Source: Sulfurovum sp. XGS-02
GTDB taxonomy: Bacteria; Campylobacterota; Campylobacteria; Campylobacterales; Sulfurovaceae
DNA length: 64,000 nt
Direction of reading: 5' to 3'
Assembly (NCBI RefSeq): GCF_023213175.1
Contig: NZ_CP093312.1
Location: 1,054,001 to 1,118,000, forward strand
Part shown: positions 7,960 through 23,252 of the stretch, piece after piece
Position numbering within the stretch: position 1 is the stretch's first letter
Layout of the letters: each line of letters starts with the position of its first letter
The notes under the pieces: model-generated
Database searches by the model: none
The model's input: the letters and a program-made list of their open reading frames with translations, nothing else
Told to the model about the DNA's origin: nothing
Position numbers and translations under genes: made by a program

Positions 7960-9927
7960 TTAAACGGATCCCATAGAACCATAATAAGATTCAAATGCTT
8001 CACTATTCAATGCTTCAGAATAATAGAATCCTTGTATCATATCACATCCTATTTCCCTGAGATACTCTACCTGGTATGCTTCTTCCACTCCTTCTGCTAT
8101 TGTAGTCACATCTATAGCATGAGAAAGATTGATGATCGCATTGAGTAAATGAACAGGTTTTTTATCTGGTGTGATCGCATCTATAAAGCTTTTGTCTATC
8201 TTTATCGAAGAAATTGGTGTATCTTTTAGATAAGTTAAAGATGAATACCCTGTTCCAAAATCATCCAATCTAAAGGTCATACCGTCATGTTGCATTGTAT
8301 TCAATACTGCCATGGTAGTCTCCCTGTACTCCATCAGTGTATATTCTGTGATCTCTAAGCTTATCTTTTTTATATCCGTATCATATTTCTTTATAATAGC
8401 ATTCATCACATCATAAAAATTGGATGAATGCATATGTTTGACGGAGAGATTGATAGACATATTGATATCAATCCCTCTTTTCAACCATTCTCTTTGCTGA
8501 TTACAGGCTGTATCAAATACCCATACCCCTATCTCCTTTACACAACACCCTTTTTCAACAAAGGGGATGAATTCATTCGGATAGATCGTTCCTTTTTCCG
8601 GATGTTCCCAACGGATAAGGGCCTCTACGGCGACTACTTTTCCACTCTTGATCTCAATGATAGGCTGATAGTTCAAACGAAATTCATTATGTTCAAGTGC
8701 ATGCCTGATATCTCTTTCAAGTTGTATATCTGATTCAATTTTCATGCCAAGTTCTTTTGAAAAAAAGACGACCCTGTTACGGCCTTCATGTTTTGCCTGA
8801 TACATTGCCATATCTACATGCCTGCGTAAAGTTATCATCTCATTGCCATCTTCAGGACACATCACGGCACCGATACTCATACCGATATTGATATGATTTC
8901 CCTCTATAATGAACGGCTCTTTTAATTTTTGAATGATCCGCTGAAGTCTCACAGAAATATCAGCTCTATCCATACAATCAATGATGATTAAAAACTCATC
9001 ACCGCCCAATCTTCCGATATCATCTGTTATACGTATCTCAGATTGCAGTACTTCTGCTACCTCTTTTATCAGTAGATCACCTATATGATGACCATAACTA
9101 TCATTCACTTTTTTAAAATGGTCAAGATCAATCATGGCTACAGCGAAGGATCCTTTGTTTCTTTTAACTTCATTGATCCTTTTTTCTAAAATCTCCTCAA
9201 TGGCTTTTCGGTTATATATCTTGGTTAAAGTATCAAAATAGGCTAGTTCCTTTAACTCTTTTAGGTTATTCTGTAAATTTTGTGAAAGGTGATTAAACTC
9301 CAGTATGTAAAATTTTGGAATTCTCTGGACTATACCGCGTAAAAAATCGTCAACAATCATGATCGGTTTTATGATCAATCTTTTAATATAAAGCAAATAA
9401 AATATGACGATCCCTATAAAAAAGAGCAAAGGATAAATGATCTGTACACCAATACGCTGTTGAACACTCTTTACAATATATTGATTGTCCAGCTTAACAT
9501 ACATGATGTAATGAACTACCTTATCATGATCAATAACATTTATATCTGAACGTATTGAATCAATGTCCGATATATTCTCTATAGACAATTGTCGTAAATG
9601 GACTGCATTCTCTTCTTTAAAATACTCTTTTTCATAAAGATAATCTGATGTACGTAAAAGCGTTCCGTCCTCTTTTACCACATAGATCTCCTTGATCATA
9701 CGCGATCCGGCTTTTTGCCTATCAAGATACGCCTTAAGATTAAGGGTTTCTTGATTATTGACTATTATTCTGATATCAAACTTCATTTCAGAGACGGATT
9801 CGCGTAAATTCTCAATCATAATCGTATGTATATGTTTTAACGTCTGATTATAGTGTAACAACATTGTGATAGTAAAAAAGCCAACAAACAGTACTATGAA
9901 TGTGAAATTTAATTTTTTAAAACTCAT
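7960..9927 (-). CDS. Membrane-bound GGDEF-EAL c-di-GMP signalling protein
   Basis: 655 residues. Membrane helix about 6-24, a periplasmic sensor region of about 135 residues, a second helix about 161-181, then GGDEF (about 308-312) and EAL (about 435-437) domains. The cyclase motif is canonical GGDEF with an inhibitory RITD I-site five residues before it. The EAL side keeps VEALIRWEH, NLS, EITEY, DDFGTGYSS, KIDKSF, EGVEE and QGFYY, so both activities look possible. Start chosen at ATG 9927, whose first 11 bases overlap the end of the upstream lipoprotein gene; the longer in-frame ORF from 9972 would run deep into it. The coupling suggests that the lipoprotein is the ligand-binding partner of the periplasmic region. 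Confidence 0.88.
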   Translation of the reverse strand: MSFKKLNFTFIVLFVGFFTITMLLHYNQTLKHIHTIMIENLRESVSEMKFDIRIIVNNQETLNLKAYLDRQKAGSRMIKEIYVVKEDGTLLRTSDYLYEKEYFKEENAVHLRQLSIENISDIDSIRSDINVIDHDKVVHYIMYVKLDNQYIVKSVQQRIGVQIIYPLLFFIGIVIFYLLYIKRLIIKPIMIVDDFLRGIVQRIPKFYILEFNHLSQNLQNNLKELKELAYFDTLTKIYNRKAIEEILEKRINEVKRNKGSFAVAMIDLDHFKKVNDSYGHHIGDLLIKEVAEVLQSEIRITDDIGRLGGDEFLIIIDCMDRADISVRLQRIIQKLKEPFIIEGNHINIGMSIGAVMCPEDGNEMITLRRHVDMAMYQAKHEGRNRVVFFSKELGMKIESDIQLERDIRHALEHNEFRLNYQPIIEIKSGKVVAVEALIRWEHPEKGTIYPNEFIPFVEKGCCVKEIGVWVFDTACNQQREWLKRGIDINMSINLSVKHMHSSNFYDVMNAIIKKYDTDIKKISLEITEYTLMEYRETTMAVLNTMQHDGMTFRLDDFGTGYSSLTYLKDTPISSIKIDKSFIDAITPDKKPVHLLNAIINLSHAIDVTTIAEGVEEAYQVEYLREIGCDMIQGFYYSEALNSEAFESYYGSMGSV

Positions 9928-19063: not shown

Positions 19064-19810
19064 TTACAAACTGTTTTCAAATAGCTTCTCATCCAACTGA
19101 CCCAGTACTGATGAAAATGATTCATTTTCCATATACTGCATGACTGCGGTATTGAATGTCAGGCTAAATACCCTGCTATGGTGTTTGAAGTCGTAGTTTG
19201 ACATCTCATTTTGCATATTGCTGATATATTTCTCTACTTCATCTTCATTCAACTCATGCATAAAGATGAGAAAGTTGTCTGCCGAATAACGAACGATCTC
19301 ATAATGACAATGTTTCTGATTTAGATAACCGATCATATAGTCACTTACCTGTTTTAAGAGTCTATTGCCTATATTCGTATCATACTCACTGATGATCCTG
19401 TCATAATCGGATATCTTGATACTTACCAAAAATCCATGATCATTGAAGGCTTCATTGTTATTGAGCTTCTCTTTAAATATCCATAATCGATTTTTGCTCT
19501 TCGAAATGTCATCTGAAAAGAGTTGTGTACGTAAGGTATCCATCGCAGATCTCAATACGTTCATCTCCTTCACATAATCTCTTTCCGTCTCAAACAAATG
19601 ATGTTCCATTTTTTTCAGTGACTGCATAGTGTTCATGATCTCATCGTCACCTGCTACAACACTGTGCGTACTTTTTTCTTGCTGTTGATCATCTGCTTTT
19701 TTCATCTCTTCCATAAAGATCTCAAGATACGTAGAAGGAAGGATAACCTCATGCTTTAGGAGCCGGAGCTTTGTTTTTTCCGTTATTTGTACCAGTTTGT
19801 CATTATGCAA
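19064..19810 (-). CDS. Degenerate GGDEF-domain protein, partner of the upstream EAL protein
   Basis: 248 residues, soluble. An N-terminal helical region (1-95, coiled-coil-like around MQSLKKMEHHLFETERDY) is followed by a diguanylate-cyclase-like domain. It keeps the VSIKISDYDRIISEYD strand and the NRLLKQVSDYM helix, but the GG(D/E)EF motif is replaced by SADNF (RYSADNFLIFM). It is therefore probably a binding or dimerisation module, not an enzyme. The start is TTG 19810, six bases after GGAG and overlapping the last codons of the EAL gene, so the two are co-translated. Confidence 0.7.
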   Translation of the reverse strand: MHNDKLVQITEKTKLRLLKHEVILPSTYLEIFMEEMKKADDQQQEKSTHSVVAGDDEIMNTMQSLKKMEHHLFETERDYVKEMNVLRSAMDTLRTQLFSDDISKSKNRLWIFKEKLNNNEAFNDHGFLVSIKISDYDRIISEYDTNIGNRLLKQVSDYMIGYLNQKHCHYEIVRYSADNFLIFMHELNEDEVEKYISNMQNEMSNYDFKHHSRVFSLTFNTAVMQYMENESFSSVLGQLDEKLFENSL

Positions 19811-21362
19811 TGTTCTCTCCTTTCGAGCCGAATGTTGCAGTCACACTCTCCCAATGCTCAGGTTTATGCAAATGATAGCCTTGCAGATAATCTACACCGA
19901 TACTTTTTGCCAGTCTCATAATTGATTCATCACTAATATATTCAGCAATGGTTTTGATCCCGAGATCATGGCAGATCTTCACCATATTCTCCAGGATGAC
20001 CCTGTATTTTTCATCATCTATTTTCGATACGAGTGAACCATCTAGTTTGACATAATCGATATCAAGATTCACGATATTGTCAAAATTTGAAAATCCACTA
20101 CCAAAATCATCTATAGCGATAAGTACCCCTTGTTTTTTAAGTGCAAAGATAAATTCATTGACCTGTTCGAGATCTTCGATCTGTTCACTCTCTACGATTT
20201 CAACTGTTAAACGACCCCCAATTTTCATCTTTTTGATTTGATGCATCAAGGTATGACAGAGTTCAGAGTTATTGATATCCAGATAAGAGAGGTTCAAGGT
20301 CATAGCAACATCATGTTCATCCATTACATGAAACACTTTTTCTATCATTTGAGACATCAACTGTGTATATAAACGGTACTCTTTTGATTTTTCCATGAAT
20401 GCTGCCGGTGATAATATATGCCCATCACTGTCCATCAGTCTCATAAGACTTTCATATTTACAGGGAACACTGTTATCTCCGGCATCAAATATCCCTTGAA
20501 AATATGGTGTAACGGTTTCTTGTTTGATATTATGAATCAGTGTCTCATAGACTTTATTGACAATATGTCCGTTCTTTTGGATCGAATAACTGTCATAAAA
20601 GATATAGCCCTTGCGTGATTTTTTTGCTTCCTGCAATGCTTTTTCCGCATAGAGTAAACTGACAGAACTGTCTGCCTTTGTCGCACCAAATGTCGTATTG
20701 AGATGAATATGGCTCTCATCAGAAATAATGAACTTATGCTTTGCAATGTTTTCGGACAGCTGTTTAACCACAAATTCAAGCAAACGATGGTTTAGATCAT
20801 GTTTTATGAATAAACAGAGTTTATCTGCATAGACATGATAGAGTTCATAGGAAAATAGTTCGACACCCTGTTTTCTAAATACCCCTTTCGTCTCCATCTC
20901 TTGCAGCGTATCTTCTATCATCGTTTTCATTTCGCTGACAATATGTGTACCAGTTTCATAGCCATAGAGGATATTGATATCATCAAATGCAACGATATCG
21001 ATCAGTGATACGATAGCAATATCATTGTACATAGAGATCTTTTTTTGGTGATCCTGCATTGTACCTCTCAAAGATGTAACAGAAAATTGCTTCTTTTTAT
21101 TTTCTTCGGACAATATTTTTTTATCTGGTTGAGGAAGAGTTGCACCCATATTCGTTCCTTTTTTGTCTAAGTCAACTTGATGTTTAATTTCCATCAGTTT
21201 AAGTAATGCCTCATCTCTTGTCTGGGCATCTACTCTTTTCTTGATCGGTTTGCCATCAGCATCTCTGTAGGTCACGTAGTAACCTGTGACCTTACCATCA
21301 GACTTACGGTAGAGTTCACTGACACCTTTATAGTGCTTGTCAGTGATAGTTCTGATTGGCAT
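19803..21362 (-). CDS. Integrase-arm-like N-terminus fused to degenerate GGDEF and EAL domains
   Basis: 519 residues, soluble. Residues 1-62 (HYKGVSELYRKSDGKVTGYY, then DADGKPIKKRVDAQTRDEA) resemble the arm-type, AP2-like DNA-binding domain found at the N-terminus of tyrosine integrases. Residues 110-260 form a GGDEF fold without the motif (YADKL in its place). Residues 280-510 form an EAL domain that keeps the key acidic and Gln positions: YESLMRL, LNLS, EIVESE, DDFGSGFSN, YVKLDGS, AEYISDE and LQGYHLH. A c-di-GMP phosphodiesterase or receptor tied to DNA is the simplest reading. No catalytic integrase domain is present. ATG 21362 follows AGGGAAAG. Palindromes lie just upstream. Confidence 0.72.
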   Translation of the reverse strand: MPIRTITDKHYKGVSELYRKSDGKVTGYYVTYRDADGKPIKKRVDAQTRDEALLKLMEIKHQVDLDKKGTNMGATLPQPDKKILSEENKKKQFSVTSLRGTMQDHQKKISMYNDIAIVSLIDIVAFDDINILYGYETGTHIVSEMKTMIEDTLQEMETKGVFRKQGVELFSYELYHVYADKLCLFIKHDLNHRLLEFVVKQLSENIAKHKFIISDESHIHLNTTFGATKADSSVSLLYAEKALQEAKKSRKGYIFYDSYSIQKNGHIVNKVYETLIHNIKQETVTPYFQGIFDAGDNSVPCKYESLMRLMDSDGHILSPAAFMEKSKEYRLYTQLMSQMIEKVFHVMDEHDVAMTLNLSYLDINNSELCHTLMHQIKKMKIGGRLTVEIVESEQIEDLEQVNEFIFALKKQGVLIAIDDFGSGFSNFDNIVNLDIDYVKLDGSLVSKIDDEKYRVILENMVKICHDLGIKTIAEYISDESIMRLAKSIGVDYLQGYHLHKPEHWESVTATFGSKGENIA

Positions 21363-21830
21363 CTTTCCCTCCGATCTCTATTAAACTTTTTTCTCAGAGA
21401 TATTTACAAACTGAAAATATCTGAACCATAATTTATATATTGTACACAAAAGTTACTACATGTGTCAAGTCAATGTAGTAACTTTTATATTAATACATAT
21501 AAGTCTATTTTAGGTCTATATTGAACAATAACAAGATAAGAATATATATTTAAGACCAAACTATTTAAAAAAGTTACTACAAAAGAAAACACATACATAT
21601 TAATAAATATATGAAGTGCTCTTATCGATTAGGGTTGATTTTAGTAGAAACATCTACTTTGAAAATAGTAGTAATATTTTGATTTTATTTGTAGTAAAAA
21701 ATAGGATCATATGAGAAGAAACTATTTTTTATCTCCCCTGCTCCATATTTATATGAGGCAAAAAGAGCTGCTGTATGCTATTGAGTTTTTCTGTTATACT
21801 TATATAAGATAATCTAAAATAAGGTAGACA
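21363..21830. other. 468-base AT-rich divergent intergenic region with repeated GTAGTAAC elements
   Basis: Separates the EAL-fusion gene (minus) from the GCS2 gene (plus). It contains a perfect long inverted repeat (21448-21486), a further copy of AAAAGTTACTAC at 21569-21580 and several GTAGTAA-type half sites between about 21640 and 21700. No ORF with coding character was found. The GCS2 promoter probably lies near 21790-21815. Confidence 0.6.
21448..21486. repeat. Perfect 14-bp inverted repeat, probable operator
   Basis: Arms AAAAGTTACTACAT and ATGTAGTAACTTTT flank an 11-base spacer. It lies 86 bases upstream of the start codon of a gene with a DNA-binding-like domain and in a divergent promoter region, where a terminator would be out of place. 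A regulatory site is therefore the better reading, although the RNA could form the same stem. Confidence 0.6.
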
Positions 21831-23252
21831 ATGGGCAGTGAGATAAGTCACAGAGAGTTTACAGAAAAAGACTTTATAGCCTTTCAAAAAGCATTAGATG
21901 CTGAATTTGAATATGTGAAAAGACTCTTTGAAAAAGGTTGCAAAGTTTTTTCAAATGATTACCACATAGGGTATGAGCTTGAAGTGTGTATACTTACCCG
22001 TGACAATCAACCCAATCCGATCAATAAAAAAATACTTGAAGAAATAGACTCCCCTCTTTTCACTAATGAACTTGCTAAATACGATTTGGAGATCAACGGA
22101 CATGTTTTTGCGCTTGATGCCAGGGCACCTCATGCACTACATGATGATCTCCGATTACTTTGGGAAAAGACCCAAAATAGTGCGAATAAGTTTGATGCAA
22201 AAATCGGACTTTTTGGGGTACTTCCCAGTCTGAGACTTGAGCATTTCAACAAGGAGTTGTACCAGTCTGATATGCATCGATATACCCTGGTATCCCAGCG
22301 TATCAAAGAGTTAAGACATGAAAGTGTCAAAGTGATGTTTCATGGTGAGGATGAAGTCTCTTTACAAAAAGATGATGTCATGTTTGAGGCACTGGGAACA
22401 TCTCTGCAGATCCACCTCCAGGTTCCTTTTGATCAAGCCGTCGAATATTATCATGCAGCACTGCTTGCCTCTGTGATACTGGTCGGGTTCGGAGCAAATT
22501 CTCCTTTGGTTCTGGGGAAAAGAGCCTGGCATGAATCCCGTATCACTATCTTTGAACAATCCGTTGATACAAGAGACAAACAGCGAAGAGAGCACGGGGA
22601 AGAGAGAAGAGTGCATTTTGCCCATGGATACATAGACTCCTGGCTGGACCTTTTTGAACAGAACAAGATGTTTAAAATCATTTTTGCAGATGTACGGAAG
22701 CAGCCTGAAAGTGATCTGCATCACTTCAATCTTCACAATGGTACGATCTGGAGGTGGATTCGTCCTATTTTAGGGATGGACAAAGATGGAAAACATACAC
22801 TCAGACTTGAACTTCGCGTACTTCCATCCGGACCGACACTGATAGATACAGAAGTCAATCTATGGTTTTTCATCGGTCTCATCCATGGCCTGATAGAGTC
22901 AAAGATCGACCTTCAAAAACTACCTTTTGAAACACTCAAAGATGATTTCTACTCTGTAGCAAAAAGAGGATTAGAAACAGAATTTCATGAACCTGTAGAT
23001 GCTCAAAGAGTCTCTTTGAAGGAGTGGATCTTGAATGAGGGAATTGCAATGACCAAAATGGGTCTTGACGCTTTGGGCATAGATCACACAGACAGCTATC
23101 TCAATACCGTCAAAGAGAGAACTGTAAGTGGACAAAATGGTGCTGCCTGGCAGCTTGAACATTATAAAAAATACAACAGCATTCCAAAACTGATGGAGGA
23201 TTATATGAAAAATGCTGAACAGAACATCCCCGTACATATGTGGAGTCTCTAG
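21831..23252 (+). CDS. GCS2-family amidoligase (glutamate-cysteine ligase-like)
   Basis: 473 residues of the glutamate-cysteine ligase type 2 family. It has YHIGYELEVCILTRDNQPNP (Mg/ATP Glu region), NGHVFALDARAPHAL, the GFGANSPLVLGKRAWHESRI core and RLELRVLPSGPTLIDTEVN. These enzymes form amide bonds between an acid and an amine using ATP; the substrates here are unknown. It is directly followed, with no spacer, by an AstE/AspA-type metallo-deacylase, so the two act on related compounds (inference). ATG 21831 has an AAGG Shine-Dalgarno. It is not an orthodox GshA, so glutathione synthesis should not be assumed. Confidence 0.8.
   Translation: MGSEISHREFTEKDFIAFQKALDAEFEYVKRLFEKGCKVFSNDYHIGYELEVCILTRDNQPNPINKKILEEIDSPLFTNELAKYDLEINGHVFALDARAPHALHDDLRLLWEKTQNSANKFDAKIGLFGVLPSLRLEHFNKELYQSDMHRYTLVSQRIKELRHESVKVMFHGEDEVSLQKDDVMFEALGTSLQIHLQVPFDQAVEYYHAALLASVILVGFGANSPLVLGKRAWHESRITIFEQSVDTRDKQRREHGEERRVHFAHGYIDSWLDLFEQNKMFKIIFADVRKQPESDLHHFNLHNGTIWRWIRPILGMDKDGKHTLRLELRVLPSGPTLIDTEVNLWFFIGLIHGLIESKIDLQKLPFETLKDDFYSVAKRGLETEFHEPVDAQRVSLKEWILNEGIAMTKMGLDALGIDHTDSYLNTVKERTVSGQNGAAWQLEHYKKYNSIPKLMEDYMKNAEQNIPVHMWSL

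Follow-up and report, generated by a model that had tools for sequence, protein, structure and literature searches.

An integrase arm-like domain on an EAL protein of Sulfurovum and a putative operator in its own promoter

Why should a protein of c-di-GMP signalling begin with a domain that resembles the arm-binding domain of tyrosine integrases, and could that domain read the repeats lying in front of its own gene? The question is raised by a 64,000-nucleotide stretch of Sulfurovum sp. XGS-02 (NZ_CP093312.1, positions 1,054,001 to 1,118,000; below, the window), taken from a 2.19 Mb genome assembled as one contig, in which a 519-residue protein (gene A; window 19803..21362, minus strand) is followed by a GGDEF-family partner (gene B). 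We propose, with a probability of roughly 0.7, that gene A encodes a DNA-binding trigger phosphodiesterase that uses an integrase arm domain to repress its own A-B operon; DNA binding, enzyme activity, the sign of regulation and its dependence on c-di-GMP are all inferred.

Domain architecture of gene A and gene B

Our Pfam, profile, modelling and ortholog-alignment data divide gene A (all features on the minus strand) into an arm-binding-like, AP2-like N-terminal domain of three strands and a C-terminal helix (residues 1-67; 21162..21362), a probably flexible linker (residues 68-100; 21063..21161; low confidence, pLDDT being about 30 at residues 71-100 when the whole protein is modelled), a degenerate GGDEF domain (residues 101-257; 20592..21062) and an EAL domain (residues 277-501; 19860..20534). 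The EAL domain was matched by Pfam over residues 277-501 with an E-value of 1.5e-51; the GGDEF match, over residues 113-249, reached 15.6 bits, below the Pfam cut-off of 23.8, and the ortholog alignment places YADKL where a GGDEF or GGEEF motif would be expected, so that the criterion for an active cyclase is not met. Ten residues of the EAL domain (Q289, E304, R308, N357, E388, D418, D419, K439, E474 and Q494) are invariant in all 11 gene A orthologs aligned and correspond to positions in the EAL domain of PA0861 (5xgb). These are, we assume from established knowledge of the family, its metal- and substrate-binding catalytic positions; an intact c-di-GMP phosphodiesterase site is inferred from this conservation, and enzyme activity itself is likewise an inference. 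The Pfam scan of gene A returned only EAL and GGDEF domains and no Phage_integrase catalytic domain: unlike tyrosine integrases, the protein has neither a core-binding nor a catalytic recombinase domain after its arm domain.

Gene B (19064..19810, minus strand; 248 residues, TTG start) shares 8 nt with the end of gene A, matches the GGDEF family in Pfam at 33.6 bits and, in the alignment, has SADNF in place of the missing GGDEF motif. A preliminary description, made from the DNA letters alone, had proposed an integrase-arm-like N-terminus without a recombinase, a motif-less GGDEF domain, an EAL domain retaining its catalytic positions and a second, co-translated motif-less GGDEF protein, and on each of these points the present data agree with it. 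In one related genome (G073, L052:4517-5681) two tandem copies of gene B stand behind gene A. Elsewhere in the window, a second GGDEF/EAL protein (8265-9006, minus strand) retains both motifs (GGDEF and DDFGTG).

Searches of Pfam, NCBIfam and PDB sequences with residues 1-80 of gene A gave nothing significant. When these residues alone were searched against 175 genomes of the same family, a dozen loci with the gene A architecture were recovered (one of them interrupted) and, ranked below them, tyrosine integrases (L016, L027, L017 and L018), the best of which (L016/L057) matched with an E-value of 4.8e-8 and 46% identity in the single-query search; a Phage_integrase domain was present in all three integrases scanned (L057 for L016, L062 for L027 and L064 for L018). 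Comparison of the gene A-domain profile with the integrase-domain profile by hhalign gave 99.4% probability (E 8.9e-22) over all 67 columns, while all shuffled and reversed controls stayed below 1%. E-values from one integrase profile search were flattered because the search profile already included four integrases; the single-query and hhalign results are independent of this flaw. At the level of sequence comparison, residues 1-67 are thus confirmed as homologous to the arm-binding domain that tyrosine integrases of Campylobacterota carry. No relative of the domain was confirmed on viral contigs at the threshold used. Several weaker hits were dismissed as chance matches: a family of trypsin-like proteases, so labelled from their GNSGGPA-type sequence (L002, a weak match in the own genome, with L019, L020 and L022-L025), a short protein of no relation (L028) and what resembles an inner-membrane protein of type II secretion (L080).

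The AlphaFold model of the domain (pLDDT 90) shows strands at residues 14-18, 25-33 and 39-44 and a helix at 49-71, and the outcome that would have refuted the proposal, the absence of any DNA-binding fold, was not obtained. Structural comparison adds only weak support: the four best VIA-align rows (Z 3.6-5.4) were two apicomplexan mitoribosome chains, the AP2 domain of ERF1 (1gcc, Z 4.6) and the arm domain of Tn916 integrase (1bb8, Z 3.6; a further entry, 1b69, gave Z 2.7), and Foldseek found no match to the domain model with an E-value below 0.001. The likeness to plant and apicomplexan AP2 proteins is one of AP2-type fold, and weak. AP2 factors derive from mobile-element domains; gene A, in contrast to them, would represent an independent bacterial event, coupled to second-messenger signalling.

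The putative operator and its distribution

Repeat finding identified, in front of gene A, a perfect 14-bp inverted repeat, AAAAGTTACTACAT-N11-ATGTAGTAACTTTT (21448..21486), which encloses the half-sites TTACTACA (21453-21460) and TGTAGTAA (21474-21481); no binding data exist for this presumed operator. The promoter of gene A, read from the sequence and with a promoter scan, has its -35 hexamer TTGACA (21463..21468, minus strand) within the palindrome and, after an 18-bp spacer, the -10 hexamer TACAAT (21439..21444, minus strand), the two hexamers together matching the consensus at 11 of 12 positions. Further half-sites on the plus strand were found by repeat search, GTTACTACA (21573..21581) and TGTAGTAA (21690..21697), and by direct reading, the 7-mer GTAGTAA (21668..21674). 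The repeats between 21448 and 21700, which had earlier been put forward as the target of the protein, are therefore real, and this role is strongly supported, binding data aside, since in every ortholog they enclose the -35 box of the gene itself and since they match the repeats of integrases that bear the domain. That the palindrome serves as an RNA terminator was rejected, as it lies upstream of its own promoter's -10 box and the terminator scan found none.

The arrangement TTACTACA-N4/5-CTTGACA-N2-5-GTAGTAA brackets the -35 box at all 16 ortholog loci (families f1 and f7), the half-sites being retained while spacer bases and flanks drift. A -10-like hexamer follows the operator at every one of these loci; in two genomes (G511 and G359) the script chose the nearer TATGCT, and TAGCAT stands at the usual distance. 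At least one additional half-site occurs in each of the 14 ortholog upstream regions listed. In the window, the extra half-sites sit between gene A and a divergently oriented gene for a conserved 473-residue protein (21831-23252), which neighbours gene A at many loci and in which Pfam recognises nothing at E 0.001. A small lipoprotein that matches a 3D domain weakly (L050:5782-6288, L052:8377-8823 and L054:517-996) is another neighbour recurring in several genomes; it is divergently transcribed and lies near extra half-sites.

Across the 175 family genomes, the exact palindrome was found in every genome that bears gene A, and its combination with TTGACA was confined to gene A loci and one adjoining lipoprotein gene. 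Three genomes without gene A also have a match to the palindrome, none with TTGACA; these matches (G001, G120 and G125) lie in or by unrelated genes, are at chance level and were discarded as operators. The lipoprotein gene in question (G128, L054:1366-2484), next to gene A and preceded by the palindrome with TTGACA, is a candidate target of the gene A regulator. It stands between two gene-A-type operators (one at L054:1276-1306), and its product carries CGGGGG and a CarboxypepD_reg domain; an apparent remnant of a gene of this type is present in G073 (L052). In the XGS-02 genome itself, the exact palindrome search returned one site only; with 2 mismatches allowed, 3 sites were found where the reversed control gave 24, and the half-operator search gave 15 and 19 sites as against 25 and 31 in the controls. 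With site counts below those of controls, a wider regulon in this genome has no support, and no convincing target beyond gene A's own promoter was found in it.

Domain-bearing integrases and the origin of the fusion

L057, whose domain is the closest among the integrases, has TTTTGTAGTAACATACAGTAGTAACAAAGGAG immediately before its start codon and two copies of GTAGTAAC (the octamer core, as a direct repeat) within 35 bp of the start, and seven more distant integrases are preceded by an exact 12-bp tandem, TGTAGTAA-N4-TGTAGTAA. Upstream of domain-bearing integrases we counted 18 octamers where dinucleotide shuffles predict 1.15, and 7 of the 12-bp tandems against an expected 0.0; these counts cover loci with parsed starts, 10 of 25 being unparsed and left out. 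In L074, L075, L076, L077, L079, L081, L085 and L087 the distance between the TGTAGTAA tandem and the start is about 75-960 bp. Given where they lie and how tyrosine integrases operate, we infer that the TGTAGTAA tandems of Campylobacterota integrases are probably arm-type sites. In several domain-bearing integrases other repeats take the place of the octamer, and those with divergent domains likewise differ (TTGTGGAAAC in L062 and L063; GGGTAGCAA in L106), so that domain and site seem, on inspection alone, to vary together. Different 12-bp direct repeats, for example GGGTAGCAATAGGGTAGCAAA, end near the start codon in L106, L109 and L065, whose N-terminal domains are divergent. Several integrase starts adjoin tRNA-like sequences, as expected for att sites (judged by eye, without a tRNA finder). 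The octamer common to the operator and to the integrases with the domain points to co-option of both the arm-type sites and their binding domain by the EAL protein, as far as sequences can tell.

The fusion occurs in two bacterial genera, Sulfurovum and one other, the orthologs of the two families (f1 and f7) sharing about 60% identity over the body of the protein. Its closest relatives without the domain are Arcobacter-like proteins of a third family, likewise within Campylobacterota (L116-L125, family f6; about 415 residues, 36-40% identity over the body), whose GGDEF-EAL plus GGDEF-like operons resemble the A-B pair in gene order and homologous partner and differ from it in having no DNA-binding domain. 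A gene B homolog follows the gene A relative in each of the seven loci read out, and the flanks are devoid of the site except for one lone octamer in L119. Conservation of the two-gene pair, one of the checks suggested at the outset, thus extends to operons that lack the fusion, which makes the A-B pair probably older than the fusion itself. The arm domain is probably a later addition to this older two-gene module, domain and site probably came together, and a single fusion with later transfer or loss is the simplest history, with no tree behind the claim. In Sulfurovum sp. AR, gene A (L003:6001-7557, L061) is broken off by a single in-frame stop about 164 codons in; a near-identical copy (G138, L048) is intact.

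A proposed autoregulatory circuit and its alternatives

We propose that the arm domain would recognise the same arm-type site as the source integrases, GTAGTAA(C)/(G)TTACTAC, and that a gene A dimer, probably joined through the GGDEF-EAL part, would occupy half-sites 21-24 bp apart. Integrases have their sites as 12-bp direct tandems, and gene A has an inverted pair in a promoter; the binding mode must accordingly differ, and inverted half-sites would suit the kind of dimer formed by EAL proteins. Because the half-sites flank the -35 box, their occupation should block RNA polymerase, and the A-B operon would repress itself; that this is repression rather than activation is deduced from the -35 overlap alone. 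When the EAL domain binds or hydrolyses c-di-GMP, under modulation by gene B, the dimer may then change and repression be released or strengthened. The part given to gene B is inferred, as is that of c-di-GMP as input, the latter by analogy with PdeL.

PdeL (YahA) of E. coli is the nearest known counterpart: it too joins an N-terminal DNA-binding domain to a related EAL sequence (PDB 4lj3 and 7pk5 matches) and its promoter region likewise contains a palindromic site. In PdeL, however, a LuxR-type helix-turn-helix is linked to EAL (PMC5052742), whereas gene A has an integrase-derived domain with a degenerate GGDEF between. Trigger phosphodiesterases such as PdeL and PdeR are EAL proteins in direct contact with a promoter or a transcription factor, their regulatory output shifting with c-di-GMP; for gene A, the conserved operator in its promoter suggests such contact, and both the contact and the effect of c-di-GMP are inferred. 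Could gene A nevertheless act as PdeL does, activating itself at low c-di-GMP through the same sites, upstream copies included, and forming a switch, not a homeostat? The further half-sites in the 14 ortholog regions speak for this, as does the precedent itself, since PdeL is a self-activator whose action c-di-GMP opposes; PdeL, however, binds far upstream (PMC5052742). In gene A it is the -35 box itself that forms the centre of the conserved palindrome. Activators rarely sit on that box, and a promoter so near consensus needs little activation, so that positive autoregulation appears unlikely, if still worth keeping in mind.

We give less credence to the reading in which GTTACTAC is the target of another cellular regulator while gene A uses its N-terminal domain otherwise, for example to contact protein or RNA. 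The lack of binding data for gene A leaves room for it, and AP2-like chains occur in mitoribosomes too; nevertheless, the confinement of palindrome plus TTGACA within the family, and the recurrence of the octamer beside integrases whose shared feature with gene A is this domain, tell against a foreign reader. That arm domain and site are merely non-functional remnants of a mobile element, with the EAL enzyme as the working part, might be argued from the interrupted gene of Sulfurovum sp. AR, but is scarcely tenable where two families share 33 invariant positions out of the 67 in the domain, sites are kept while their surroundings drift and gene A is intact at all other loci. Autorepression by an integrase-derived domain remains the reading we prefer.

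A precedent for such a circuit is KplE1 IntS, an integrase that represses its own gene through an att region overlapping the promoter; there the regulator is the recombinase itself, whereas in gene A it would be a c-di-GMP enzyme (PMC2951348). Since integrases repress their own genes via att sites, a captured domain and site would arrive as a working feedback unit, and we lean, somewhat less firmly than for the circuit, towards capture of the arm domain together with its cognate sites as an autoregulatory unit, giving a class of bacterial AP2-type transcription factor under second-messenger control. Likeness to the arm domains of Tn916 Int-type integrases (AP2-like) extends over sequence, recognition repeats and, at weak structural scores, predicted fold.

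The preliminary description had supposed a protein of an undescribed kind. This does not hold for DNA-binding EAL proteins as such, given PdeL, which a 2025 review treats as a promoter-binding trigger phosphodiesterase without mention of integrases (PMC12564702); what was not found described is the integrase-derived domain on an EAL protein, no report of an integrase-EAL fusion or related regulator having turned up in the open-licence literature, of which coverage was partial. If the proposal is true, a second, unrelated DNA-binding fold would join the promoter-binding EAL proteins, so far represented by PdeL, and gene A would offer a traceable bacterial case of a transcription factor drawn from a mobile-element recombinase, with both domain and DNA site recognisable in the presumed donor family. 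The pairing of domain and site also predicts arm sites for a Campylobacterota integrase family, and the locus would provide, for Campylobacterota, an autoregulatory c-di-GMP circuit that lends itself to direct testing.
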